NCBI RefSeq assembly: GCF_024519725.1
Contig: NZ_JALJRK010000028.1
Location: forward strand, 1 to 64,000
DNA length: 64,000 nucleotides
Source of the DNA: Microvirga sp. Mcv34
Lineage (GTDB): Bacteria > Pseudomonadota > Alphaproteobacteria > Rhizobiales > Beijerinckiaceae
Direction: 5' to 3'
The position numbers and the translations under genes were made by a program. Numbering within the stretch: position 1 is the stretch's first letter; every line of letters begins with the position of its first letter. The notes beneath the pieces are model-generated. The model saw only the letters and a list, made by a program, of their open reading frames with translations. It did not search any database and was not told the DNA's origin. Positions 23,824-25,286 of this stretch are shown in pieces.

Positions 23824-24158
23824 CGCAACCTCCACGAATGGATGTGAACAGGTCACGGGTCTCTTGGTTCCTGACGCTCTCCCATAAAGGACGCGTCGCA
23901 CATCCGTCCCTATTCACTGGACCTGCGGCTAACGCCGTTCCATCCGCACGGTTGTCGAAAGTCAATTCCGCTCTTCCCACATATGGCGATGTTCTACTCC
24001 TTTCCCGAAGATCGGCCTCTTGCTGCCGCGCCATCTCTAAGGCTGAGTTCGACCGAACGGACGTGCAGGAAGCGTCGCCATGAAGCCGCCTTTCGAGTCG
24101 CGGAACCCTGGCATCGCCTTCACGTTGGCCTCCTGTTCATGCTGCAATGGAGGCGATC

Positions 24159-24323
24159 ATGAGATGCCAGTTCTGTCATCAGGACGTCGAGAACCCCTGC
24201 CATAACGTTCAAGAGATGCAGCAGCGCGCGCAAAGCCACGTGGAGCGTTGCGAACATGCTCTCCAGGATCAGAAGGGCATGAAAGCCGGCTCGCAGCGCA
24301 GCGATGTTCAAAGAAGCGGATGA
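24159..24323 (+). CDS. Tiny Cys/His-rich protein, 54 residues
   Basis: A 54-residue protein with start ATG at 24159 after GGAGGCGATC. The N-terminus reads MRCQFCHQDVENPCHN, and a later HVERCEH follows, giving a CxxCH, CH and CEH arrangement that looks like a small zinc finger. The C-terminal third is polar. It is the first of three tandem tiny genes that end at the terminator 24664-24689. I do not recognise a family. Confidence 0.6.
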   Translation: MRCQFCHQDVENPCHNVQEMQQRAQSHVERCEHALQDQKGMKAGSQRSDVQRSG

Positions 24324-24327
24324 GCTC

Positions 24328-24519
24328 ATGTCCGACAAGACCGAGGACCGTGATCGGGGCTTGGCAGAGCGGAGCGTAAACACCAGCATCGTGCCGCCGA
24401 CCGAGGATAATCCCGGCCATAGGATCCGGAACGACCGCTCCGCACCCGATCGACGCCTGGAGGAGAACGGTCAGCGCGAAGGCCTGGAGAGGACTGAGCG
24501 CGATCACGAAGTCCGATAA
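24328..24519 (+). CDS. Tiny hydrophilic protein, 63 residues
   Basis: Starts four bases after the previous gene's stop, beginning MSDKTEDRDRGLAERS. It is highly charged, rich in Arg, Glu and Asp, and probably disordered. The ribosome site is weak (GGAT), so translation may be coupled to the Cys/His-rich gene. Third positions are about two thirds G or C, compatible with coding but not decisive. An in-frame ATG at 24304 is possible. Unknown function. Confidence 0.45.
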   Translation: MSDKTEDRDRGLAERSVNTSIVPPTEDNPGHRIRNDRSAPDRRLEENGQREGLERTERDHEVR

Positions 24520-24544
24520 CGACACGAAGCCTGGGAGCATCGCA

Positions 24545-24643
24545 ATGGCACGAAAGGCCCGGATGAGACCATCCTGGAAGAAGGCGAAGAGCCAGAAGAA
24601 GGCGTCGGGTTCCCGCAAAGAACGGGTGACCCAGCGCAGCTAA
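24545..24643 (+). CDS. Tiny basic peptide, 32 residues
   Basis: A 32-residue peptide beginning MARKARMRPSWKKAKSQKKA, with 14 Lys or Arg and only two Glu or Asp. GGGAG lies seven bases before the ATG. It could bind nucleic acid or membranes, but that is inference from charge only. It is the last frame before a good terminator, which supports a real transcript end here. Confidence 0.45.
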   Translation: MARKARMRPSWKKAKSQKKASGSRKERVTQRS

Positions 24644-24663: not shown

Positions 24664-24689
24664 ACGGCCCGCCTTGGCGGGCCGTTTCT
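24664..24689 (+). terminator. Terminator after the tiny-gene cluster
   Basis: ACGGCCCGCC pairs perfectly with GGCGGGCCGT around a very short loop, followed by TTCTG. It starts 20 bases after the stop of the 32-residue frame. Confidence 0.7.
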
Positions 24690-24875: not shown

Positions 24876-25286
24876 ATGACTGCATCGTCGCTCAGCTTCA
24901 AACTTGCCGTTCTCTTCGTCATCGCAGGAATGGCGATGGGAATCGGCATGGCCGCATCCCAGGACCACTCGATCATGCCCGCCCACGCACATCTCAATCT
25001 GCTCGGGTGGGTGTCGCTGTTCCTCTTCGGCATTTACTATGAGCGCCGTCCCGCCCTCGACAAGAGCCGGCTGGCCATGATCCAGGTTATTATCTGGTCG
25101 CTTGGGACCGTCGTGCTGACCGTCGCCGTCGCCGCTCTCCACCTCGGATACGCGGCTTTCGATCCGGTTGCCGCCATCGCATCGCTGATCGTGCTCGTCG
25201 CCATGGTCCTGTTCGCGTATTTCGTCTTCAAGCCGGCGCGCGACATCGCTTCGTCGCCGACGCCTCACCTGACGCCGGCCGAGTGA
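24876..25286 (+). CDS. Small haem-copper-oxidase-like membrane protein
   Basis: A 136-residue protein with four hydrophobic segments. The motif AHAHLNLLGWVSLFLFG recalls the haem-ligand helix of cytochrome oxidase / NorB subunit I (HxHxxLLG); such stand-alone short proteins occur in Rhizobiales. Catalytic function is doubtful at this size; a haem-binding or sensor role is inference. GGAGG lies five bases before the ATG. A CRP/FNR-like repeat is upstream. Confidence 0.7.
   Translation: MTASSLSFKLAVLFVIAGMAMGIGMAASQDHSIMPAHAHLNLLGWVSLFLFGIYYERRPALDKSRLAMIQVIIWSLGTVVLTVAVAALHLGYAAFDPVAAIASLIVLVAMVLFAYFVFKPARDIASSPTPHLTPAE

Follow-up and report, generated by a model that had tools for sequence, protein, structure and literature searches.

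Three small genes lying in tandem in the soil bacterium Microvirga sp. Mcv34, designated here A, B and C, can on balance be read as a single general-stress transcription unit predicted to be driven by the sigma factor EcfG, the products of which would hold or coat nucleic acid or ribosomes. That the genes form a real EcfG-driven operon is highly likely from comparison of the sequences, and the binding of nucleic acid or ribosomes by the encoded proteins is proposed tentatively, as the more doubtful part of this reading. What the trio probably makes is a set of small stress-protection proteins. The EcfG promoter, the key feature of the locus, was absent from the original prediction for this DNA. 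All coordinates refer to the window, that is, the whole 64-kb stretch of DNA analysed.

Gene layout and coding evidence

The locus comprises the following features:

24102-24126, + strand: putative EcfG-type promoter, with the -35 element GGAAC at 24102-24106, a 16-nt spacer and the -10 element CGTT at 24123-24126
24149-24153, + strand: Shine-Dalgarno GGAGG of A, read by eye; similar in most A upstream sequences
24159-24323, + strand: gene A, 54 aa, finger-like, Cys/His-rich
24328-24519, + strand: gene B, 63 aa, acidic and hydrophilic, with a conserved GLAERSVNTSIV core
24533-24537, + strand: Shine-Dalgarno GGGAG of C, read by eye
24545-24643, + strand: gene C, 32 aa, very basic; MARKARMRPSWKK...SGSRKERVTQRS
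24664-24687, + strand: terminator-like hairpin with a 9-bp stem and a short T tail, after C

The three tandem open reading frames with short gaps between them had been described beforehand, with coordinates and lengths that are exact; the gaps measure 4 nt between A and B and 25 nt between B and C. Protein A reads MRCQFCHQDVENPCHNVQEMQQRAQSHVERCEHALQDQKGMKAGSQRSDVQRSG, protein B begins with MSDKTEDRDRGLAERSVNTSIV and protein C reads MARKARMRPSWKKAKSQKKASGSRKERVTQRS, with net charges at pH 7 of -0.2, -3.3 and +11.5, respectively. The GGAGG lies 5 nt 5' of the ATG of A and the GGGAG 7 nt 5' of that of C, whereas the ribosome site of B appears weak by eye, so that the earlier mention of good ribosome sites for two of the genes is correct. 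Translation of B may be coupled to the stop codon of A.

In the proposed frames, pN/pS was 0.22 for A (22 sequences), 0.50 for B (22 sequences) and 0.31 for C (17 sequences), as against 0.97-2.06 in the shifted sense frames of the three genes. The set for A consisted of the 22 of 30 A sequences that have B at the same locus, and that for C of matches at E<=1e-8 (17 of the 21 loci with a C match), omitting L009, L015, L018 and L024, where C is broken or partial. Judged by these substitution patterns, A, B and C are genuine genes under purifying selection. Homologues, purifying selection and freedom from frame-breaking changes between close strains had been named in the original prediction as the points on which the trio should be judged. 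Between species, relatives of all three genes were found, selection is apparent in the values above, and the frames are mostly intact; it is in C that this last expectation fails for a minority of species, with stops inside C at the A locus in four genomes (G010, G019, G031 and G036) and a truncated C in a fifth (G035). B and C are also less complete among the 30 A loci, B being present at 22 and a C match at 21.

As predicted, the trio ends in a perfect hairpin, ACGGCCCGCCTTGGCGGGCCGT at 24664-24685, which has a 9-bp stem and a short T tail. It is absent from the list produced by a terminator scan of the window because that scan asks for 5 T in 8. Conservation extends to a terminator-like hairpin 3' of C: at 13 of 17 loci, the 110 nt following C contain a stem of 8 bp or more, and at 11 of those 13 there are at least 4 T among the next 8 bases. 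Among random 110-nt stretches (n=4500), such a stem was found in 5.0%, and in 1.8% together with the T criterion.

A conserved promoter of the general stress type

The sequence GGAACCCTGGCATCGCCTTCACGTT, located 57 nt 5' of A, contains an exact GGAAC-N16-CGTT in the window. This strict motif stands 54-60 nt 5' of the A ATG at 29 of 30 loci, the remaining one (L028) having TGTT. In a second collection it was found within 150 nt 5' of A at 33 of 41 loci; six of the other eight carry one changed base and two have neither form. The two collections share many species; of 52 distinct A upstream sequences, 43 have the strict motif and 49 have GGAAC-N16-18-[C/T/G]GTT. None of 246 control ORFs from the same loci (at least 90 aa long, having a relative at another locus and lying 600 nt or more from A) is preceded by the motif. 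Strict matches in the 41 loci number 46, and 39 of these lie directly before an A copy (the 33 just mentioned and six before second copies). The motif by itself is weak and not rare, with three occurrences in the window and, for its CGTTGG form, 19 in the genome versus 11 for the backwards pattern; the case for a promoter therefore rests on its conserved position.

The EcfG consensus is given, in the portions available of the respective papers, as GGAAC-N16-CGTT (PMC7083833), GAAC-N16,17-C/GGTT (PMC4814048) and GGAAC-N17-20-GTT (PMC6599016). The first of these sources also describes a flexible -10 box (PMC7083833), with which the TGTT seen at some paralogues of A agrees.

The genome containing the window encodes PhyR (PF22029, PF22233, PF00072) and NepR (PF18557) with a sigma factor adjacent, identified as EcfG by its sigma-70 domains and its position beside nepR, and the motif faces both ways in the divide between phyR and nepR-ecfG. 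Given the conserved promoter and the presence of this PhyR-NepR-EcfG switch, the trio likely belongs to the EcfG general stress regulon. As expected of such a regulon, a consensus promoter precedes the first gene, and phyR, nepR and ecfG carry the same motif. No named family is matched over its cut-off by A, B or C. The available part of one regulon table includes many hypothetical proteins (PMC6599016).

From what is established about this switch, PhyR would sequester the anti-sigma factor NepR under stress; EcfG would thereby be freed, and the EcfG-RNA polymerase would transcribe A-B-C. A limited literature search found nothing on the trio, which is no proof of absence, and with regard to the general stress sigma factor of Microvirga only work on Burkholderia surfaced, in partially available sources.

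Two further observations concern the switch and its surroundings. The 7.5 kb around phyR-nepR-ecfG (L083, G000:C267:25500-33000) contain ten GGAAC-N16/17-CGTT matches on both strands. NepR-like matches over the Pfam cut-off number eight in this genome (G000 contigs C267, C122, C263 twice, C133, C319, C166 and C270), and there may thus be several general-stress anti-sigma factors.

At many loci, an inverted repeat (24126-24158 in the window) is formed by GTTGGCCTCC, which follows the -10 box, and GGAGGCCA, which precedes the A ATG; it may be an extended -10 element, an operator or an RNA hairpin. By promoter geometry, its left arm would fall upstream of the start site. In 25 of 49 sequences the arms form 6 or more Watson-Crick bp, compared with 46% for swapped arms and 3% for shuffled left arms. 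Mean arm pairing was 6.08 for own and 5.66 for swapped arms, a difference in which none of 5000 permutations reached the own value, kinship being uncorrected. We do not claim a hairpin that hides the ribosome site of A.

Distribution and linkage of the trio

Of 48 Microvirga genomes searched with profiles, 41 have A, in up to six copies per genome, and seven do not; B was detected in 30 and C-type genes in 29. All 41 loci in genome records with A are from Microvirga. No A was found in the other 42 genera of the family (248 family genomes). At the level of the order (397 genomes), the window's own genome alone gave a match, and at that of the class (385 genomes) it was joined by one marginal match (G731, E 8.5e-4), which is interrupted by stops and was rejected as a relative from its match row alone. 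From each genome, these wide searches scored a portion of the first-look candidates (at most 27 in the family, 16 in the order and 17 in the class), so that distant relatives of A outside the genus could be missed. B, found in 30 genomes, and C, found in 35 when short matches are included, had no match beyond Microvirga among 150 relatives from 99 genera. Among the genomes sampled, the trio is confined to Microvirga, with no credible match elsewhere.

Within the genus, none of the 48 genomes has B or a C-type gene without A, and 11 have A without B. Each of the 30 B matches is preceded on its own strand by A at a distance of less than 120 nt. The same holds, at less than 400 nt, for 27 of 35 C-type matches; the other eight places lack such an A, one of them being a contig end that cuts C from its A and B. 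All 101 A rows and all 30 B rows entered these counts, as did 35 of the 74 C-type match rows, the other 39 being short partial matches, mostly of a longer relative, C2. The C2 set itself comprised 60 of 70 rows, the other 10 being cross-hits to C.

Two A copies lie 348-603 nt apart on one strand in eight genomes (G007, G017, G023, G026, G027, G287, G297 and G303). Six of seven second A copies (L037, L048, L053, L054, L057, L060 and L069) have a strict EcfG motif of their own.

The neighbourhood of the trio is partly conserved. Over 42 A loci, including that of the window, neighbouring genes fall into a cluster of 32 for a PLP-type enzyme (c0), a cluster of 27 for a membrane protein of 136 aa that weakly resembles COX1 (c1; 24876-25286 in the window) and clusters of 26 for TRAP-type transporter genes (c2 and c3), these names being given by eye and a large gene intervening at some loci.

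C has the conserved core K-A-R-x-R-P-S-W-K. Its relative C2, 45 aa in length (MAGK..RPSFKK...RYANRHG), is found at other places. For 20 of 60 C2 matches an A copy lies no more than 400 nt away, in each case in convergent orientation (two of the 20 are pieces of one locus). Six pairs of C2 with an A copy of the A2 type were read closely: in five, the two genes share 4 bp at their stop codons, and in the remaining pair C2 is cut short by a premature stop. Convergent A2-C2 loci include L123:597-865, L124, L126, L131 and L133. None of the 13 C2 copies examined has an EcfG motif within 300 nt upstream; C-type peptides thus do not invariably belong to the regulon. The one order-level C2 match (G597) was rejected, being judged by eye unlike C2.

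A third form, C3, belongs to a different small operon, read at four loci (L128, L136, L137 and L139). A promoter-like site, GGAACAT-N-GGTT or AGTT, is followed there by a 59-aa disordered-looking ORF (without a start codon in L137) and C3, and at three of the four loci by a 69-aa His/Gly-rich ORF. The linkage of A with C-type peptides in two different gene arrangements suggests that A and C share a function.

Protein A and the possible function of the trio

In an alignment of 49 sequences (A5), residues M1, C3, C6, P13, C14, R23, A24, R30, C31 and A34 of A are invariant, and F5, Q8, H15, H27 and E32 nearly so. The structure model, of middling confidence (mean pLDDT 74.6, pTM 0.45), has helices at 17-25 and 29-44. 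Of 32 A members, 21 match PF24623 (Phage_zn_bind_8), a putative DNA-binding phage zinc finger, at E<=1 (best E 2.1e-4) and 23 match the RING-type finger zf-rbx1 (best E 0.012), all of these matches being weak. The best A-type score with PF24623, from an A2-type copy, is 22.2 bits versus a gathering cut-off of 24, and the A of the window scores 14.2 bits. No A copy reaches the cut-off, and A is for this reason termed finger-like and not a member of PF24623.

The two share the C-x2-C-x7-C spacing and H-x2-R, but the distance from the third Cys to the His is 12 in A and 10 in PF24623, and A has an additional invariant C31, its H27 not being invariant. A moreover stands alone with a C-terminal helix, and no copy was found in the phage collection, which was searched with A and not with B or C. 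True PF24623 members, over cut-off, do occur in Microvirga (G006, G014, G018 and G300), where they are other genes elsewhere in the genomes and read CPRCGAARGQPC...PHEGR. One A paralogue of the A2 type (L126) has lost two of the cysteines, from which it appears that some A copies are decaying. With less certainty, we infer for A a short, free-standing zinc finger whose ligands would be C3, C6 and C14 together with H27 or C31; this finger may derive from, or resemble, the phage-type CxxC-x7-C-H fingers.

The statement that these proteins fit no known family holds after searching: A has no Pfam match over cut-off, and none of the three matches NCBIfam at E<=1 or PADLOC. In PHROGs, A weakly matches phrog_8924 (E 0.036; 0.006 for an A2 copy), and B and C match nothing in the family libraries scanned (PHROGs excluded for B). 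Sequence searches of the PDB with A and C gave nothing meaningful, and Foldseek of the A model against the PDB gave 0 matches. A single BFVD fold match of A, at E 9.9, was discarded as meaningless. The combination of a finger-like Cys/His protein with a basic peptide, noticed from the start, is borne out as a conserved trio.

As A resembles a small zinc finger and C is very basic, the simplest reading gives them a binding role, protective or silencing, during arrest. The RPSWKK basic peptide C would bind nucleic acid or ribosomes, and B could be an unstructured acidic partner or spacer, both roles being among the less sure parts of the scheme. During growth arrest, the three proteins together would cover or retain RNA, DNA or ribosomes.

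The main rival, which we consider unlikely, keeps the stress operon and makes its products a regulatory or chaperone set that does not act on nucleic acid, with A serving as an adaptor or as a Cys protein that senses redox state, and C as its partner. One redox-regulated chaperone of bacteria is small and Cys-rich. Four invariant cysteines and a stress promoter would suit a redox switch equally well, the acidic B and the basic C could bind each other, and redox-regulated bacterial chaperones exist, according to the available portion of one source (PMC7448276). However, B is found in 30 of the 48 genomes versus 41 for A, and a fixed A-B-C complex is thus not general, B being missing where A is kept; furthermore, among the below-threshold matches of A the best is to a putative DNA-binding finger.

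A toxin-antitoxin or toxin-type module, as once suggested for this locus, is improbable. Small proteins of opposite charge encoded in one operon, the multiple A copies per genome and the convergent, overlapping A2-C2 pairs would all suit such a module, as would the occurrence of A on four plasmid records and the position of the L057 trio (Microvirga roseola) on a contig with a plasmid label. The four plasmids are, however, all from Microvirga and all typed non-mobilizable; C is found in no plasmid record, and C2 in three, again all Microvirga. The absence of A from the phage collection, the separable parts (A, B and C-type genes differ in the number of genomes that have them), the restriction to a single genus among the genomes sampled and the partly conserved neighbourhood likewise speak against a toxin module, as do the lack of any match to a toxin-antitoxin or defence family (Pfam over cut-off, PADLOC, NCBIfam) and the general-stress promoter at which the operon begins.

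That the small ORFs are not genes, their conservation being due to a regulatory RNA or an antisense gene, is very hard to credit: a 153-aa ORF on the opposite strand (24157-24618) covers the same stretch and one antisense frame has pN/pS below 1 (0.34 for A, 0.64 for B, 0.49 for C), as expected since silent positions coincide, but the lowest values are those of the proposed sense frames, with shifted sense frames at about 1 or more, the ribosome sites are conserved, and of the 22 sequences each of A and B, 21 and 19, respectively, have stops in this best antisense frame. An antisense gene across the trio is rejected on these stops for A and B; the evidence is weaker for C, where stops occur in three of 17 sequences and the frame is open in 14.

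Returning to the reading of the trio as a stress-induced unit of binding proteins, a bolder and rather improbable extension is a genus-specific nucleoprotein system in which A and the RPSWKK/RPSFKK peptides of the C type cooperate to protect ribosomes or the nucleoid during arrest. On this view, A and C have been kept adjacent in two arrangements, the A-B-C operon and the tail-to-tail A2-C2 pairs. To a specialist, an EcfG promoter before a small stress operon will come as no surprise; it is the proteins themselves that are new. Three anonymous ORFs become predicted targets of a well-studied stress switch, and, small proteins being in our judgement among the least known parts of such regulons, the repeated association between finger-like protein and basic peptide provides a specific idea of the role that some of them may play.
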